A stretch of 26,318 nt of DNA. Source: a virus. The stretch covers positions 1 to 26,318 of IMG/VR virus record IMGVR_UViG_3300034066_002609; one strand, 5' to 3'. Shown here one piece after another: positions 2,108-16,336 of the stretch (position 1 is the first letter of the stretch; each line of letters opens with the position of its first letter). The notes under the pieces are model-generated. The model worked only from the letters and a program-made list of their open reading frames with translations. It was not told where the DNA came from and did no database searches. Position numbers and translations under genes: made by a program.

Positions 2108-2546
2108 TCGCTACGAAAGTCGTTATGGTGGAGGTTGGGTCGCCCCCCAACAGATCCTGGCAGAATATATGTGTGAGAGGCAGGCATTGAAGGAAAAAAC
2201 TTCTTTGCCTGCTAAGTTTTGGGATCTCGACAGATGGAAAAAGATTTTTCTGCTTCAACTCAGGCTAGCTTTGAAGCTGCTTGAAACATATCACCCGACA
2301 GTAATATCTAGAGCGATACGTTCTCCAGAAGGCAAGAAGGCATACTCATTTGGTGCCCCATTCCTAAAAGATGCCCTGGCAAGAGAACAGCTAAAGTATG
2401 ACGCGGAAATACTTTCCTTAGCGTCTTCACCCACTACTCTTTTGTCGACGCCTCCCCCGAGCGGTAAGCAGGAGGTTGAGACAAGACCCGTTTTCTCTTG
2501 TTCTAGGTCTATGCGTTCCAAATTAGAGGAGCTTGAGCGTGGCTAA
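2082..2546 (+). CDS. Hypothetical protein upstream of recA
   Basis: A 154-residue product starting at ATG 2082, six bases after GGAGG at 2071-2075; the ATG at 2076 is too close to that site. The N-terminus is basic and Gly-rich (RYGGGWVAP). The middle is helical with aromatic and leucine residues (WKKIFLLQLRLALKLLETYH), and the C-terminal third is Ser/Pro-rich, ending in a basic-acidic helix. It overlaps the recA start by 8 bases. Its position suggests a recombination or replication accessory factor, but nothing in the sequence identifies one. Confidence 0.55.
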   Translation: MARKETESSRYESRYGGGWVAPQQILAEYMCERQALKEKTSLPAKFWDLDRWKKIFLLQLRLALKLLETYHPTVISRAIRSPEGKKAYSFGAPFLKDALAREQLKYDAEILSLASSPTTLLSTPPPSGKQEVETRPVFSCSRSMRSKLEELERG

Positions 2547-4614
2547 AAAAGTTGAGTCTGACCTTACGAAAGAAATGATCAAAAAGTATGGTGATGGAGT
2601 CGTCGTCTCTGCTCGCGACGTGATGAATCTTGAGGAAGAGAGAAAGCAAGTCATACCTTTGGCTCCAGCGCTAAATGTAGCCTTGCATGGAGGCATACCA
2701 GAGGGGACCTGGGTTACTTGTTCAGGACAACCCAAGAGTGGCAAGGAGCAACCAGTATCTGCGATAGTCCACACCCCTGCTGGTCCAATGAGGATTGGAG
2801 ACTTGTCTGTTGGAGACGAGATTTGTCATCCGTATGGCAAAAGTAATGTCGTAGGAGTATTCCCTCAAGGAGTGAAGCAGGTATATCGAGTTCACTTTGA
2901 CTCTGGAGATTATGCTGAGTGTGGGATAGACCACCTGTGGCAGGTCGGATGCTCTAAGACATTAAAGAAAAAAGTTGTTCGACTGTTCGACATCAAAGAT
3001 GACCTATATCTCAAGCAAAAAAATAACCGCTGGGGCAGGCGCCCAAAATGGACAGTTGATGTACCTTCCCCAGTATGCATGAATAAGCAAGAAGTCCCCG
3101 TAGATCCCTATGTTGTGGGATTATTGCTGGGGAATGGTTCAATGGTTACGAATAATATGTCTTTCACAACAATGGATAAAGAGCTAGCTGTTGTGGTGGG
3201 CAATCAAGGGAATTGTCAGGTTTCAGCCAATAGAAGTCTATATAGCTACAGGATAACTGCAAGCAGGGAGCTGAGAGGCTCTCTTTCTGAACTCGGGCTA
3301 ATGGGAAGGCACTCTCACACAAAGTGTGTCCCAGAAATTTATCTGTATAATTGGGCACCCGTTAGGCTTGCTGTATTGCAGGGATTGATGGATACCGACG
3401 GGACAGCAAATAAAAAAGGCGACTGTGAGTTCAGCACCGCGTCCAGGAAGTTGGCGGAAGACGTTAAGCATCTTGTCTTGTCTTTGGGTGGGCTTTGCTC
3501 TATTCGCATGACCAGAAAAGAATTGAACGGTAAGATGTTTCACTCCTATCGCTGTTTTATCCGTATGCCAGACGCAAGCGTTCTCTTTCGCGTCGACAGG
3601 AAAAAGAGTAGGTGTACAAGAAAAAGGACCAATTCTCTACGTCGTAGAATTGTTTCCGTCGAGTATGTGCGTGACGAGATGTCTGTTTGCATTGAGGTCT
3701 CGAGTGACGACGGTTTGTATTTAACCAATAACTTTATTGTCACACACAATACTTCCACAGCTCTGTCTTTTGCTGCACAGTGCCAGAAACCGGAATATGG
3801 GGCGAGACACGTTTATTATCTGAACGTGGAGGGGCGACTGAAAGAAATGAATCTGCGGGGAACGCTAGGTCTAGATCTAGACAAGATGACAATTGTTAGA
3901 TCTACCGCAGATAAAATCCTTTCTGCAAAAGACTATCTCACGCTAGCAATGCAGGTAATAAATACTCATCCTGGATGTCTTGTGATTATTGATTCCGTCT
4001 CCGCCCTGTGTGATGAAAAAGAAATGGATGAAGGTGTGGGGTACGAAAATAGAGGGGCTGGCAATAAGATCTTCGCTGGCTTTTGTCGCCAGGCGGCAAA
4101 CATAGTCCCAGTGAGGAACTGTATTGTCTGGGCGATTATGCATCTTACTCAGTCCCAGACTGGTTATGGCGGTTATGTCGAGAAGGGATCTAGGACATTA
4201 CAGTACCAGGCTGACGTACAAATGAGAGTTAAGTATGATAGACCATGGAAAGTCGGAGTTTCTGGAAGCGAAAAGCAAATTGGCCAGCAGGTTCATTGGT
4301 TGATTGAGTCCTGCGCTCTCGGGCCTCCTGGAATGGAAGTAGATTCGTACATTCGCTATGGCGTTGGGGTAGACAGGGTGTTTGAGGCCATCAATCTAGG
4401 CGTTCAGTTAGGCTTAGTGGGCAAGGCGGGAGCCTGGATGTCTCTTGACTATATGGAAAGACATGTCGCACTTTTAGGTTTGGATAAGTGGGGGGATGAA
4501 GCCATCAAGAAAACTAAGACTCAGGGCGCCGAAAAGTTGTATAAGCTTCTTCAAGACAATCCTGCCTGGATAGAAGTTCTGGAGAAAGAAATCTCAAAGA
4601 TGATTAATCCATGA
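2539..4614 (+). CDS. recA: RecA-like recombinase interrupted by an intein
   Basis: Encodes the strand-exchange ATPase that coats single-stranded DNA for recombination-dependent replication and repair. Without the 335-residue intein the host protein is 356 residues, normal for RecA. Visible features: the RecA-type lead-in IPLAPALNVALHGGIPEG, a Walker A motif GQPKSGK/T split by the intein, Walker B CLVIIDSVSAL, an L2-like region around HLTQSQTGYGG, and the C-terminal signature FEAINLGVQLGLVGKAGAW. GTG 2539 is chosen since AGAGGAG at 2525-2531 is well placed for it; the TTG at 2533 is too close. It is ATGA-coupled to the nuclease gene downstream. ATP binding requires removal of the intein, because the P-loop is incomplete until splicing. 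Confidence 0.93.
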   Translation: MAKKVESDLTKEMIKKYGDGVVVSARDVMNLEEERKQVIPLAPALNVALHGGIPEGTWVTCSGQPKSGKEQPVSAIVHTPAGPMRIGDLSVGDEICHPYGKSNVVGVFPQGVKQVYRVHFDSGDYAECGIDHLWQVGCSKTLKKKVVRLFDIKDDLYLKQKNNRWGRRPKWTVDVPSPVCMNKQEVPVDPYVVGLLLGNGSMVTNNMSFTTMDKELAVVVGNQGNCQVSANRSLYSYRITASRELRGSLSELGLMGRHSHTKCVPEIYLYNWAPVRLAVLQGLMDTDGTANKKGDCEFSTASRKLAEDVKHLVLSLGGLCSIRMTRKELNGKMFHSYRCFIRMPDASVLFRVDRKKSRCTRKRTNSLRRRIVSVEYVRDEMSVCIEVSSDDGLYLTNNFIVTHNTSTALSFAAQCQKPEYGARHVYYLNVEGRLKEMNLRGTLGLDLDKMTIVRSTADKILSAKDYLTLAMQVINTHPGCLVIIDSVSALCDEKEMDEGVGYENRGAGNKIFAGFCRQAANIVPVRNCIVWAIMHLTQSQTGYGGYVEKGSRTLQYQADVQMRVKYDRPWKVGVSGSEKQIGQQVHWLIESCALGPPGMEVDSYIRYGVGVDRVFEAINLGVQLGLVGKAGAWMSLDYMERHVALLGLDKWGDEAIKKTKTQGAEKLYKLLQDNPAWIEVLEKEISKMINP
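2746..3750 (+). mobile_element. LAGLIDADG intein in the RecA P-loop
   Basis: A 335-residue in-frame insertion between the Lys and Thr of the Walker A motif (GQPKSGK, then TSTALSF). The N-terminal block has the Hint feature RIGDLSVGDEI. Block B contains CGIDHLW. A two-motif LAGLIDADG endonuclease follows (VVGLLLGNG near 3112-3138 and LQGLMDTDG at 3376-3402). The end, CIEVSSDDGLYLTNN then FIVTHN/T, is a typical block F/G. The first residue is Glu rather than Cys, Ser or Ala. The block F Cys and block B Trp recall class 3 inteins, although the adjacent Thr of that triad is Ile here. The first nuclease motif has Asn where the catalytic Asp is expected. Confidence 0.92.
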
Positions 4615-10942: not shown

Positions 10943-12856
10943 ATGTCTTGGGTGCCTCTGCGCGTACATACGCACTTCAGCCTACTTAATTCGACATCCA
11001 AGCCAGACCAAGTCGCGACACGATGCCACTCTCTTGGTTATACGTCATGCGCAATTACCGATCATGGAACATTGGCGGGGACTGTCGCATTCTCAAAAGC
11101 TCTTCGCAAAAAAAATATTCGGCCCATTCTTGGGTGCGAGTTTTATCTTTCTGATTCGAAAAAGGAAAATGGGCAAGCAACTTCTCGAGTTTGCGTTTTG
11201 GCTAAGGGAGATGTCGGATGGAAAAATCTGATACATGCTTCTAGTGAATCGAACTCTCCTGAAAATTTTCACAAAAAGCCTACGCTTAGCCTTGAGCAAT
11301 TAGGCAGATACTCTTGTGGAGAGCTTGTTGCTTTTTCTGGTGGCCCTGGGTCTGATCTTTTTGCTGCCATTTTTGGAGATCTTAAGCTAGCAAATGATGC
11401 CGCTTCTTATGATGACGCTCGAAAAGAAGTATCTTCAGACTGGGAGTCCAGGATGCTTGGCGTCGTCAAGAAATATCGAGATGCGTTTGGCCCAGAGAAT
11501 TTTTGGATAGAAATTCAGGCTGTTGATCAAGACAATTTTCCTGCGTCTGCAGTGGCAGTTAATGCTCTACGCCATCTCGCTAAAAAGCATAAGCTGAACA
11601 CTGTTGCAGTACCAAATGCGTACTACCCATCTAAAGAAGATGCAGCTGATCAAAGGCTGTTGCTTTGTACGTCCATGCAGGCAACGCTTCCGACAATAAG
11701 GGCAGCGCTTGCCAAGAGGGAAGGGTCTGGACTAGATAAGTTTTTTCGCTCTAATCGCTATCACATTCCTTCTCTAGAAGAAGTCAAAGAACTACATACC
11801 CCAGAGGAAATTGAGTCCTCGATTAAGATTACAGAAATGTGTGCCGATTATGATATTCTCGGAAAGCCAATTCTCCCTAATTTTGACTGCCCTAAGGGAA
11901 TTAGTGCTGACGAGCACCTGAGGCAGCTCTGTAGAGAAGGTTGGAGGAAGAAGTTACCTGACGTAAAGGCCGATCATTCTCAGTATAATGTTTATGGTGA
12001 TCGCATTAAGCAGGAGCTTGGAGTTATTGTAGAGGCTGGACTAAGCGCATATTTTCTTGTTGTTCAAGAGTACTGCGCCTGGGCGCGATCTTGTGGCTGG
12101 CTTGTGGGTAAAGGTAGAGGTTCGGGAGCTGGTAGTTTAATTAGCTATCTGGTGAATATTACCGACGTAGATCCAATCAAGTACGGCCTTTTGTTTGAAA
12201 GATTTTATAACGCCGGTCGTAATCAACCAGGGCGAGTAAGCCTCCCAGATATTGATTGCGATTTTCCCATCTCTCACAGGGATGACGTTGTTCAGCACAT
12301 GAGAGAAAAATATGGCGAAGGGCATGTGGCACAGATGGTGACATTTAGTAGACTGCAAGGAAGAGCGGCTATCAAAGATGTTCTTAAGGCTCATGAAAAA
12401 GGCACGTTTGACGAGGTCAATAGGATTACGGAAAATATTCCAGATGAGGCATCTATCACTGAAGAGCTTCAGGAAATGAGAGAGGATACGGGGGAAGCCT
12501 CTATTCTACAGTGGGCACTTGAAAATAATGCCAAGGGCCTTTCTCAGTGGTGTCATATCGGAGACAGTGGGCAATTAGAAGGGCCTTTGGCTAGTGAATT
12601 TGCTCAGGCCATTCGCTTGGAGGGGGTGAAAAGGAATCAGGGGAAACATGCCGCAGGAGTAATAATAGCACCAAGGCCATTAACAGAATGCTGCCCTATG
12701 GTTTATGACAAGGCTACAGACCGTAGCATTTGCGGGGTTGAAATGAGCGATCTTGAGAGCATGGGTTTTGTCAAGTTTGACATTCTTGGTGTCGCGGCAC
12801 TAGACAAGATACAGGGTGTTGTTTCGCTTTTAAGGGGTGGTAAGGCAAGAACCTAG
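10943..12856 (+). CDS. dnaE: DNA polymerase III alpha, N-terminal half (PHP and catalytic palm)
   Basis: A 637-residue protein holding the PHP domain (RVHTHFSLL, AITDHGTLAG) and the palm of a DnaE-type polymerase. VGKGRGSGAGSLISYL, LPDIDCDF (D436 and D438) and VKFDILG (D613) supply all three catalytic aspartates; GRAAIKDVL and GKHAAGVIIAP are also conserved. Translation ends shortly after the third Asp at a TAG, in the linker before GVFQLES, which is found in the second gene at 13806. The two halves, without the intein, total about 1178 residues, close to intact DnaE. Start at ATG 10943; a TTG-type start at 10901 lies inside the inverted repeat. No split-intein sequence is visible at its C-terminus. 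Confidence 0.92.
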   Translation: MSWVPLRVHTHFSLLNSTSKPDQVATRCHSLGYTSCAITDHGTLAGTVAFSKALRKKNIRPILGCEFYLSDSKKENGQATSRVCVLAKGDVGWKNLIHASSESNSPENFHKKPTLSLEQLGRYSCGELVAFSGGPGSDLFAAIFGDLKLANDAASYDDARKEVSSDWESRMLGVVKKYRDAFGPENFWIEIQAVDQDNFPASAVAVNALRHLAKKHKLNTVAVPNAYYPSKEDAADQRLLLCTSMQATLPTIRAALAKREGSGLDKFFRSNRYHIPSLEEVKELHTPEEIESSIKITEMCADYDILGKPILPNFDCPKGISADEHLRQLCREGWRKKLPDVKADHSQYNVYGDRIKQELGVIVEAGLSAYFLVVQEYCAWARSCGWLVGKGRGSGAGSLISYLVNITDVDPIKYGLLFERFYNAGRNQPGRVSLPDIDCDFPISHRDDVVQHMREKYGEGHVAQMVTFSRLQGRAAIKDVLKAHEKGTFDEVNRITENIPDEASITEELQEMREDTGEASILQWALENNAKGLSQWCHIGDSGQLEGPLASEFAQAIRLEGVKRNQGKHAAGVIIAPRPLTECCPMVYDKATDRSICGVEMSDLESMGFVKFDILGVAALDKIQGVVSLLRGGKART

Positions 12857-12871
12857 AAAAGGAGAGATGTC

Positions 12872-13150
12872 GTGGCTAATGATGATGACATTGGACTGTC
12901 TGTTCGGCTAGCAGATCACAACTTGGCGCTTTTAGACGCTCTCTCTGAGTTGTCTAAAGCAAAGGTGGAGATAACTGTAAATCTCGGGAAATTAGTTAAG
13001 GCCCTGGTGCTTAAGGCTGGTGGCGAGGTTGTTCTTGACTCTGCATTCGTCGAGGCTGCAGACGACCCATGCTGTGCGTTGGAGACAAAGATAGGGAAAG
13101 ACAAAAGTGTTACCATTTGGGTTGAGAAGCACACGGAGATTGACCAATGA
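12872..13150 (+). CDS. Small hypothetical protein nested in the polymerase locus
   Basis: A 92-residue protein with a GTG start behind AAAAGGAGAG (12857-12866). It reads as an N-terminal helical region (LADHNLALLDALSELSKAK), another helix (LGKLVKALVLKAGG) and a beta C-terminus (KSVTIWVEKH). No known motif. It lies between the N-terminal polymerase half and the exonuclease and overlaps the latter by four bases, so it could be a small polymerase-exonuclease subunit. That is inference from position only. Confidence 0.65.
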   Translation: MANDDDIGLSVRLADHNLALLDALSELSKAKVEITVNLGKLVKALVLKAGGEVVLDSAFVEAADDPCCALETKIGKDKSVTIWVEKHTEIDQ

Positions 13151-13809
13151 ATTCTAATGTGATTATTTGTTTTGATTTTGAGACCGGTGGACTAGATATA
13201 AAGACAACTGAACCCATTGAGATTGCGGCAATAGCCATAAATCCCAGGACTTTAACTCCGATTCCTGATGGAACATTTTATAGTCTCTGCCGGCCTACAG
13301 ATTTTTCTATTTTGCAGGACGGGGCACTGGCGGTAAATGGAAAGACTAGGGGAGAGCTGCAGAAAGCACCCGAGCAGGAGATTGTGTGGAAAGCTTTTGC
13401 GGGATTTATCAAAAGGTTTAATCCCAAAGGCAATGGTTTTATGACATCCCCCATTCCTGCAGGCAAAAACATTCGACTTTTTGATCTTCCAATCTTCACA
13501 CGGATTTGTAGAAAATATGGTTTTGCTGATAAGAGTGGAGAGCAAAATCTTTTTCATCGTCGCAAAGTTTACGATCTAGAAGACATGTTAGAGTTTTGGT
13601 TTGAGAATTCTGACGAGCTTCCAAATAGAAAGATGGATACGCTCAGAAGTTATTTTGGTTTAAGCAAAGACGGGGCACACTCTGCTATGGTTGATACGCA
13701 GCAGACAGCAGATTTGATTACTAGATTCATGCGTCTTCATCGCTATCATGCATCCAAGACGTCGTTCAAGGGTGCGTGCGTTAGGACGGAGTCTTCAGTA
13801 AAGATATGA
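13147..13809 (+). CDS. DEDDh 3'-5' exonuclease (proofreading subunit-like)
   Basis: A 220-residue exonuclease resembling DNA polymerase III epsilon. ExoI is IICFDFETGG (D10, E12), ExoII lies in KNIRLFDLPIF, and ExoIII is HSAMVDTQQTADL (H178, D183), so the four acidic residues and the His of the DEDDh class are present. Known family members remove mispaired 3' ends during replication. Lying between the two halves of the polymerase, it is the natural proofreading partner. ATGA overlaps join it to both flanking genes. Confidence 0.88.
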   Translation: MNSNVIICFDFETGGLDIKTTEPIEIAAIAINPRTLTPIPDGTFYSLCRPTDFSILQDGALAVNGKTRGELQKAPEQEIVWKAFAGFIKRFNPKGNGFMTSPIPAGKNIRLFDLPIFTRICRKYGFADKSGEQNLFHRRKVYDLEDMLEFWFENSDELPNRKMDTLRSYFGLSKDGAHSAMVDTQQTADLITRFMRLHRYHASKTSFKGACVRTESSVKI

Positions 13810-15923
13810 AAAATTACAAGATGTCTTGCGGTTGTTCCTGGCCTATTATTGCCCCTCCCCCTAAGGAGGGGGCCTTGCCAATATTAGATGTCGACGTATT
13901 GCGACTGCCAGACTGCGTGACAGCGTGGGATTTAATGTCTGAGGGCACTACGAAGGGTGTTTTTCAGCTTGAGTCTAGGCTTGGTTCCTCGTGGGCAAAA
14001 AGACTCAAGCCGAGAAACAACGAGCACCTATCAGCACTTGGTGCGCTATTAAGGCCAGGCTGTCTGGCTGCTAAAGACGACAATGGCGTGTCTATGACTG
14101 AGCACTACTGTCGTCGTGTGAACGGAGAAGAGGTCGCGGAGTCTTTCGATCCTGCCTTAGACGAAATCCTTGGTTCCACAGAGCAGATTCTGGTCTACCA
14201 GGAACAGGCCATGCAGATTGGCGCTAAGATCGCTGGGTTTGACCTTAAGAATGTAGATAGGTTGAGGAAGGCCATCGGCAAAAAAGATCAACGGGAAATG
14301 TCTGAAGTAAAAAAGCTTTTTGTTGATGGTGCCGCACAGAAAAAAGTTGTTTCCGAGGACATGGCTGCTACTATCTGGGGGTGGATCGAGAAGTCTGGTC
14401 GATACTCTTTTAATAAGTGTGTTTCCTTTGATACTGCTTTTCTCCGCCCGAACGGCGACAAAGAAAGGCATACTGTCGAAGAACTTTTCTTTATCAAGAA
14501 TGATATAGAGTATGCTAGAGTTCGAGGCCTTGTGTATTTACATAACTTAATTAATGATAGGGGGCATTATGGCAGTGGATTTTCTTTGTGTAATGATGGT
14601 AGAATCGTTGAAAATATTATTAGAGATATTCGGTATTCAGGACATATTTATGTTTTGAGTATTACTACTGAAAGTGGAGCAAAGATAAGGGTCACTCATA
14701 ACCATAAGTTTCCGACGAGCGCGGGGATAAAGAAGGCCTCTGATCTAAGGTTGGGAGATGATCTTTATTCTTTTTGCTGGGGGCAAGACTGCTCCCACAT
14801 AGAAAAGATTTTACTAATAGAGGACGATGGCGAATGCAACACATATGATGTTACTATGGACGCGCCTAATCATAATTTTGTTGTCTCTTCCGGCATCGTC
14901 ACATGCAATAGCCATTCTATGTCGTATGGTCTTACTGGATATGACACAGCATATTTGAAGTCTCACTTCCCCGTTCAGTTCTACACCTCGTGGCTTTGTT
15001 TTGCCGAAGACAAGATTAAGCCAGACGAGGAAGTAATGGAGCTGGTTGAAGATGCCAGGAGGGCTGGTGTTCCAATTCTTCCTCCAGATCTAAGAAGCAA
15101 GGAAATGATTTTCCATACCGACGGGATAAGCATTTCTTTTGGATTAGGCAACATAAAGGGTCTTGGCGAAAATACTCTTGCTAAGATGTTTATTTTTGTC
15201 GAAGGGGTTGAAAAAAAGCTAGGAAGACCACTATCACAATGGACTTGGCTTGAGTGGGTTCTTTGTGTTGGGTCTAACTTCTTGTCGGCGACACAAAAGA
15301 TGATCATGTCTGGGGCTATGGATTGGTCTGGAGTTAAACGACAAAAGATGCTTGCTGAGTTGGAAGTGGTCGCTTCTTTGACAGACATCGAGATTGCTTG
15401 GATGATTGATCATTCGTGCGGCGACCTACTAAAAGATCTTCGTTCTCTGGCCAGGACCAAAAAAGATGGTGGCGGTTGTGCTAATGCTAAGAGGGTTTCT
15501 CTTGTGCTAGGTCATTCTGCTCTGCTAGAAAAACCACCCACACCACTTAATGACAATGTGGCATGGATGGCTTGGGCAGAAGAACAGGCCTTTGGTTTCT
15601 CTTTGACGTGTAGTCGGGTTGACGCGTGCGATCTTAATGACGCTAATACTACCGTCGGAGAATTTCTTGCTGGGAAAACCGGCTTTATCATGATGGGAGT
15701 TGAAATACGCTCCATCAGGATTATCAAAACAAAGAAAGGGACCGAAATGGCGTTCCTCTCTCTTGTCGACTCGTCTGGGGTGCTAGACGATGTTGTATGC
15801 TTCTCTGAGCCTCTTGAGGAGTATCGTTACCTCCTCACTCAGGGGAACACTGTCCTTGTTCAAGGCGAGCGAGACCCTAAAAAGAATTCGTTCGTCTTGC
15901 GTAAGGTTTTTCAATTGGCGTGA
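13806..15923 (+). CDS. dnaE: DNA polymerase III alpha, C-terminal half, with mini-intein
   Basis: 705 residues, 541 after intein removal. It resumes where the first half stops: TKGVFQLES, LRPGCLAAK, ILVYQEQAMQIG, RLRKAIGKK, then the FNK/SHS motif interrupted by the intein, then ILPPDLRSKE and IKGLGENTLAKMF. It ends with an OB-fold (FIMMGVEIRSIRIIKTKKGT...DDVVCFSE). It carries the fingers, thumb-side and C-terminal regions but none of the catalytic aspartates, so it must act with the 10943-12856 product. ATG 13806 is ATGA-coupled to the exonuclease gene but has a weak binding site; TTG 13875 with AAGGAGG at 13863-13869 is a strong alternative start. Confidence 0.9.
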   Translation: MKNYKMSCGCSWPIIAPPPKEGALPILDVDVLRLPDCVTAWDLMSEGTTKGVFQLESRLGSSWAKRLKPRNNEHLSALGALLRPGCLAAKDDNGVSMTEHYCRRVNGEEVAESFDPALDEILGSTEQILVYQEQAMQIGAKIAGFDLKNVDRLRKAIGKKDQREMSEVKKLFVDGAAQKKVVSEDMAATIWGWIEKSGRYSFNKCVSFDTAFLRPNGDKERHTVEELFFIKNDIEYARVRGLVYLHNLINDRGHYGSGFSLCNDGRIVENIIRDIRYSGHIYVLSITTESGAKIRVTHNHKFPTSAGIKKASDLRLGDDLYSFCWGQDCSHIEKILLIEDDGECNTYDVTMDAPNHNFVVSSGIVTCNSHSMSYGLTGYDTAYLKSHFPVQFYTSWLCFAEDKIKPDEEVMELVEDARRAGVPILPPDLRSKEMIFHTDGISISFGLGNIKGLGENTLAKMFIFVEGVEKKLGRPLSQWTWLEWVLCVGSNFLSATQKMIMSGAMDWSGVKRQKMLAELEVVASLTDIEIAWMIDHSCGDLLKDLRSLARTKKDGGGCANAKRVSLVLGHSALLEKPPTPLNDNVAWMAWAEEQAFGFSLTCSRVDACDLNDANTTVGEFLAGKTGFIMMGVEIRSIRIIKTKKGTEMAFLSLVDSSGVLDDVVCFSEPLEEYRYLLTQGNTVLVQGERDPKKNSFVLRKVFQLA
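13852..13871 (+). promoter_or_regulatory. GC-rich hairpin containing a perfect Shine-Dalgarno sequence
   Basis: CCCCTCC (13852-13858) pairs with GGAGGGG (13865-13871) around a six-base loop. The 3' arm lies in AAGGAGG (13863-13869), which is five bases before an in-frame TTG at 13875. If used, that start would give a C-terminal polymerase half lacking the first 23 residues, with its ribosome binding site sequestered in the hairpin. It lies inside coding sequence (APPPKEG), so it may instead be a codon-level accident. Confidence 0.4.
14418..14909 (+). mobile_element. Mini-intein in the C-terminal half of DnaE
   Basis: A 164-residue in-frame insertion (residues 205-368 of the 13806 product) splitting SFNK from SHSMSYG. 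It starts with CVSFDT (Cys1), has a block B GAKIRVTHNHKF, the feature ASDLRLGDDLYSF, a block F TYDVTMDAPNHNFVV and ends SGIVTCN before Ser+1. There is no homing-endonuclease domain, so it cannot mobilise itself. The penultimate residue is Cys instead of the usual His. Insertion is three residues downstream of the site of the cyanobacterial split DnaE intein (…Y/CFNKSHS), as I recall that family. Confidence 0.92.
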
Positions 15924-15937
15924 CCGGGAGATAAGTT

Positions 15938-16336
15938 GTGAACGAGTGTATTTTTATTGGTAATCTTACTCGAGATCCCGAGATCAAGAACGTCGGTGCT
16001 GAGCATCGCGTTGCCAGATTCACCCTGGCGGTTAATACTGGTGGGAGGAAGGGTAAGGATGGTGAGGAAGAAGTTGCCTTTATCGACTGCGAAGTCTGGG
16101 ATAAGGCTGCCGATCTCATCAGCAAATACATTACCAAGGGGTCCAAGCTTTGCGTTCAGGCTTCTGCAAAAACAGAGTCTTGGACAGACAAAGCTACGGG
16201 GGCTAAGCGCAGTGCTCTCCGGTTCCGAGTTCACAAATTTCACTTTGTCGGAAGCAAGCAACCTGCGTCGGCAGTAGCCGGTGCTGAAGATGAAGCGTGC
16301 TCGCAAACTGATTCAACTGAGGAAATCCCCTTCTAA
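15938..16336 (+). CDS. ssb: Single-stranded DNA-binding protein
   Basis: A 132-residue SSB with one OB-fold: NECIFIGNLTRDPEIK, VARFTLAVN, VAFIDCEVWDKAADLISKYITKG and LRFRVHKFHFVG. The linker is short, and the acidic tip ends EEIPF, like the DDIPF tail that docks partner proteins in bacterial SSBs. It protects single strands at the fork and during RecA loading. GTG start, with GGGAG at 15926-15930 seven bases upstream. The TAA overlaps the next ATG by one base. Confidence 0.92.
   Translation: MNECIFIGNLTRDPEIKNVGAEHRVARFTLAVNTGGRKGKDGEEEVAFIDCEVWDKAADLISKYITKGSKLCVQASAKTESWTDKATGAKRSALRFRVHKFHFVGSKQPASAVAGAEDEACSQTDSTEEIPF

Follow-up and report, generated by a model that had tools for sequence, protein, structure and literature searches.

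DNA polymerase III (Pol III) alpha of the DnaE type is encoded by two separate genes in the virus record IMGVR_UViG_3300034066_002609, a stretch of 26,318 nt that was analysed at its full length (hereafter the window; residue and gene positions are given on its numbering). The first gene carries the N-terminal half of the polymerase (N half) and the second its C-terminal half (C half), and between them lie an open reading frame (ORF) for a 92-residue protein and a gene for a DEDDh 3'-5' exonuclease. We consider it highly likely that the two chains make up a DnaE replicase joined non-covalently, with the exonuclease as its proofreader; the association of the chains, their activity and the binding of the exonuclease are inferred from the comparisons described below.

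The two halves and the break between them

The N half (10943..12856, + strand, 637 aa) comprises the PHP, palm and thumb regions of a DnaE-type alpha subunit, with Pfam matches to PHP (PF02811, E 9e-30) and DNA_pol3_alpha (PF07733, E 1.5e-70). Its catalytic aspartates are D436/D438 and D613; the palm catalytic residues are invariant in the family alignment, and D613, the third aspartate, stands 24 residues upstream of the C-terminal end, which reads ...SLLRGGKART. The AlphaFold2 (AF2) model of this half has a mean predicted local distance difference test score (pLDDT) of 86.3 and aligns structurally with residues 4-577 of E. coli alpha (2hnh; Z 34.7, root-mean-square deviation (rmsd) 3.7 Å over 562 residues).

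The C half (13806..15923, + strand) is a 705-aa ORF with a cysteine-containing leader, fingers, a helix-hairpin-helix and an OB fold. The fingers match Pfam DNA_pol3_finger (PF17657) at E 5e-35, and the OB match (PF01336) lies below the cut-off but the fold aligns structurally. The AF2 model (mean pLDDT 77.8, with the intein part below 50) corresponds to residues 573-910 or further of 2hnh (Z 18.7, rmsd 3.1 Å over 325 residues). Without its intein the C half has 541 aa, and the halves together come to 637 + 541 = 1178 residues, in agreement with the length of about 1178 given in the original prediction, which was made from the sequence of the window. The gene coordinates, the gene content and the placement of the 92-residue protein and the exonuclease between the halves were likewise borne out by ORF and Pfam analysis. 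The pair thus shows the traits of DnaE-type C-family polymerases, namely PHP, a palm with three catalytic aspartates, fingers and OB in the DnaE order, and lacks the trait of being a single polypeptide.

The break falls at the palm/fingers junction, corresponding to residues ~573-580 of E. coli alpha. In phmmer searches the N half maps to E. coli alpha up to residue ~576 and the C half from residue 580, and where the junction of a one-chain homologue was read, these segments follow each other with 0-9 residues between them. When E. coli alpha was fitted, a single rigid body comprised the palm together with part of the fingers (residues 281-432 and 510-810; PMC4703070), so the split cuts through a packed unit. 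It is important to note that the two halves are read in different frames (offset 1), with ~950 bp and two ORFs between them; a single base or stop error therefore could not fuse them.

In split members, the fingers are preceded by a leader of ~20-25 residues with cysteines (C8, C10 and C37 in the window) that is absent from one-chain DnaEs. Its CxC motif is found in 80 of the 92 loci of the family described below, a few members being without it, and C37 is invariant in a 34-row alignment. The leader is modelled confidently (pLDDT 91-94); that it binds zinc is a guess.

The exonuclease (13147..13809, + strand, 220 aa) matches Pfam RNase_T (PF00929, E 2.5e-19) and PHROG_192, 'DNA polymerase exonuclease subunit'. 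All five residues of the DEDDh DnaQ-like signature (D10, E12, D113, H178 and D183) are present and invariant in a 20-row alignment. In active PHP exonucleases, the PHP domain has a nine-residue trinuclear metal site (PMC5636811). The PHP domain of the window (10943-11650) departs at four positions from the residues that most relatives share (D16N, H134G, D225N and H227Y); these positions align to metal-ligand positions of active PHP exonucleases, and the lost residues are probable metal ligands. Because of this loss, proofreading in the window is more likely the task of the DEDDh enzyme.

The 92-aa ORF (12872..13150, + strand, GTG start) is preceded by a Shine-Dalgarno-like AAAGGAG and has no Pfam or PHROG match. 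It is found only in the close clade of the window, while many other members carry a protein of ~60 aa with an SCC motif between the N half and the exonuclease (e.g., L036:6120-6302). This protein is conserved and has no clear family, with a weak match to PHROG_2183 (function unknown). A profile comparison showed no homology between the two small proteins (hhalign probability 0.2%). In two other loci (L023 and L065) nothing lies at this position, and in a further two (L020 and L049) there are other genes. With this restriction to one clade, and with an unrelated ~60-aa protein or nothing in its place elsewhere, the 92-aa protein is an improbable candidate for a general assembly factor. The exonuclease, in contrast, is the sole constant element between the halves across split loci.

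Distribution, phylogeny and the one-chain form

IMG/VR was searched with both halves of the polymerase as well as with deeper family members, and loci were counted by distinct C halves. The order N half, exonuclease, C half was found in 92 distinct viral loci, with identities to the window of 46-72% for N halves and 39-73% for C halves. Ratios of nonsynonymous to synonymous substitution rates (dN/dS), taken from unsaturated pairs only, are about 0.03-0.08 in the N half, the exonuclease and the C half, which indicates strong purifying selection. In 87 of the 92 loci the start of the C half falls between 56 nt upstream and 24 nt downstream of the exonuclease stop, most commonly at -4; since the starts were assigned mechanically from ORFs, single values are approximate. 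In the window itself, the junctions of the 92-aa ORF with the exonuclease and of the exonuclease with the C half are both 4-nt ATGA overlaps, as in translational coupling.

In a few of the loci (L053, L058, L217 and kin) the N half is itself in two pieces. For example, in L053:3117-6110 (also L056, L058 and L217) a homing-endonuclease gene interrupts the N half immediately upstream of PDIDID, so that DnaE comes in three pieces, and the second N piece of this type has ~90 extra leading residues.

A sole polymerase was also seen among the longer relatives: each of 18 long records (69-171 kb) has one DnaE palm and one fingers domain, the palm being divided into two pieces in three records, and a search of these records uniformly turned up neither another DnaE nor a polymerase of family A or B (PF00136 absent). 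The split family was not recovered from cultured phages or plasmids, as matches in INPHARED and PLSDB are only ~25-35% identical. Among GTDB genomes there are just two contigs of the clade (L092 and L093), one in a Flavobacteriales and one in a Lokiarchaeota metagenome-assembled genome, and both are probably misbinned phage.

The split family forms one clade in a 34-row tree, with a Shimodaira-Hasegawa-like approximate likelihood ratio test support of 100. One subgroup carries both halves in a single ORF of 1,138-1,139 aa with the exonuclease just upstream (L290:5286-9402, also L293 and L294). Here a 7-aa linker joins the same two segments; the palm motifs are intact and there is no Cys leader. 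These fused forms are nested within the split clade with supports of 99 and then 92 in the 34-row tree, and a 113-row FastTree supports the same inner node (0.998). Their exonuclease is closest to that of L242/L244 (49%), and several flanking genes match that same subgroup. From these sequence comparisons, the fused form is probably a natural re-fusion within the split clade. That one subgroup carries the same segments as one chain is a natural hint that the halves act as one enzyme.

How the chains may act together

In the mechanism that we propose, the first gene would yield a PHP-palm-thumb chain with all three catalytic aspartates and the second a fingers-OB chain, both from one operon in which the start/stop overlaps would favour adjacent, near-equal synthesis of the products, with a small ORF in some cases and the exonuclease between. 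The chains would then meet non-covalently at the palm/fingers junction and restore the kind of active site found in one-chain alpha, while the DEDDh exonuclease would be the proofreading subunit, in the role of E. coli epsilon. The universal linkage of the exonuclease together with its coupling makes it plausible that the exonuclease belongs to the polymerase complex. The split would have arisen once at the base of the phage clade and been kept since, with one lineage probably re-fusing the chains.

This mechanism may be refined, without being replaced, by assuming that the exonuclease is also a structural bridge, in an obligate three-subunit core. Its gene lies between the N and C halves in the 92 loci, is upstream yet still adjacent when the chains are fused, and appears to be translationally coupled. 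The gene order may, however, mean co-expression only, and the cultured phage phiT1 (described below), which is split at the same site, has a 49-aa ORF alone between its halves and no exonuclease match nearby. We regard the bridge as possible but not favoured. A further extension, that the whole clade has a three-chain replicase with its active site between two chains, the exonuclease as obligate bridge and a Cys leader (which may bind zinc) that arose to stabilize the new interface, is rather unlikely.

The chains might instead be joined covalently after expression, by protein or RNA trans-splicing through an undetected split intein or intron. Cyanobacterial DnaE is encoded by two genes and its chains are ligated by a split intein, and phages of the split clade are rich in inteins and homing endonucleases. 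The N end (SLLRGGKART) and the conserved CGC leader of the C half, however, are unlike intein sequence; N ends and C starts were read in the window and across relatives, and no split-intein halves were found at the break, as the original prediction had held. No Rfam intron match was found in the window, L053 or L049, and an intron as the explanation of the break was rejected on these grounds. The C half also has its own start overlapping the exonuclease stop, which fits independent translation. Covalent joining is thus very improbable. With no split intein at hand, non-covalent reassembly is the mechanism left, and the one-chain subgroup adds to the support for it.

Because the association of the chains rests on inference, one may also suppose two separate functions, the N chain being above all a nuclease or a regulator while the C chain aids the host polymerase. 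In line with this, no bacterial-type beta clamp was found by PF00712 in 22 long phage records (G001-G019 and G021-G023; the search was for this clamp type only), despite the DnaE type of the polymerase, so that the phages may draw on components of the host. Against it, the catalytic triad of the palm and the motifs of the fingers have both been retained, the two genes are adjacent in every case, the halves also occur naturally as a single chain, and the long records have no other polymerase; separate functions are accordingly hardly to be expected. Finally, degraded remnants or a sequencing or assembly artefact, for which the loss of four probable PHP metal ligands in the window could speak, are refuted by the independent contigs, that is, by 92 distinct loci under purifying selection with invariant catalytic residues, and by the offset frames with two ORFs between.

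The original prediction had named an assembly error at the break and a second complete polymerase elsewhere as outcomes that would overturn it, and neither was encountered, in view of the distinct loci and the long relatives described above. It had also suggested mapping the break on an alpha structure and looking for relatives with the same order, which led to the palm/fingers junction and to the 92 loci, respectively.

Several points weigh against a two-chain replicase of this kind. Given the rigid-body fit of the E. coli palm and fingers, the halves must hold a demanding interface. Approximately unbiased (AU) tests gave p 0.052 and 0.057, so that a placement of the fused forms as sister to the split clade is not firmly excluded. 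Moreover, every relative is known as an uncultured contig, and no completeness estimate accompanies the records.

If the proposal is right, a bacterial-type replicase that is usually one chain can work over long evolutionary times as two non-covalent chains that are separated at the palm/fingers junction. The split DnaEs would then offer a set of natural experiments, including an ancestral split, a probably independent split at the same site in phiT1, three-piece forms with a homing endonuclease gene and a likely re-fusion. They would also supply ready N/C pairs with which to attempt reconstitution, to engineer split polymerases and to examine the docking of an epsilon-like proofreader.

Neighbouring features and comparison with known systems

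On the + strand, the N half, the 92-aa ORF, the exonuclease and the C half are followed by SSB (15938-16336) in an apparent operon, and the surrounding genes constitute a replication module (RecA-like, DnaB-like helicase, primase, deoxynucleoside monophosphate kinase, PD-(D/E)XK nuclease, MazG and PhoH). Within the C half lies a mini-intein of ~164 aa (14418..14909, + strand; residues ~205-368 of the ORF) between FNK and SHS. As is usual for inteins, its first residue is Cys and its last is Asn, followed by Ser (CVSFD...VTCN|S), and it has a PDB match (4o1r). The splicing-domain match (PF14890) is weak (E 7.9e-7, 29.4 bits against a gathering cut-off of 35.8), and the model is of low confidence. 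Its penultimate residue, before the terminal Asn, is Cys and not His. The mini-intein is absent in close aligned relatives, and the inteins of L255 and L305 sit elsewhere (RPG|C). The RecA-like gene (2533-4611) has a large intein-like insert with a LAGLIDADG match that breaks the Walker A motif behind SGK; what seems to be the first residue of this intein is neither of the usual ones, Cys or Ser.

Unlike cyanobacterial split DnaE, where the intein flanks the break and the break is at another site, the break in the window has no flanking intein, and the window's own intein is a cis mini-intein. Rossellomorea phage phiT1 (PV767480; L176:4989-8271) is a cultured phage with DnaE in two ORFs and the same palm/fingers break; it differs in the 49-aa ORF between the halves, the lack of an exonuclease match nearby and the lack of a Cys leader. 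In the tree, phiT1 falls outside the split clade, together with the fused DnaE of a Bacillus phage (support 68). Joining it to the split clade gave an AU p of 0.0945; kinship is disfavoured by the tree, and the same-site split of phiT1 is probably independent. In other phages DnaE is broken elsewhere: an HNH gene interrupts it in KLEB27-3, the break in Jayan is close to the catalytic Asp motif, and vB_BpsS-140 is a third case.

The E. coli Pol III core likewise combines a DnaE-type alpha with a separate DEDDh proofreader, but its alpha is one chain. E. coli epsilon binds the PHP domain via its C-terminal tail (PMC4703070), whereas only ~30 residues follow the RNase_T domain in the exonuclease of the window. 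In group 2.2 jumbo phages, Iyer et al. 2021 described a minimal Pol III alpha, likewise a catalytic core in two phage proteins, spread over distant genes and accompanied by a family B polymerase (PMC7824862). That enzyme is without other Pol III domains and its genes are far apart, whereas the window has PHP to OB in adjacent genes as the sole polymerase found. In Atu_ph07, the Pfam palm match covers positions 18-98 only and the fingers are unmatched, so the break is elsewhere and the enzyme a different one.

In the T4-like Aeromonas phages 25 and 44RR, the replicative polymerase is also made as two polypeptides, the products 43A and 43B of gene 43, and the split family B polymerase of phage 25 co-purifies and has polymerase activity (PMC2988022). 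The 43A/43B pair is of family B, is associated with a homing endonuclease or an untranslated spacer, and has been described in a few phages; the pair in the window is of family C and belongs to a deep clade. With its C-family domains, and with no PF00136 in its relatives, it is not a member of the T4-like split gp43 family, though the two may work alike. A full-text literature search found no description of a family with this split around an exonuclease, and absence there is no proof. Split phage replicases are already known, and a deeply conserved two-chain DnaE of this kind is a new variant among them.
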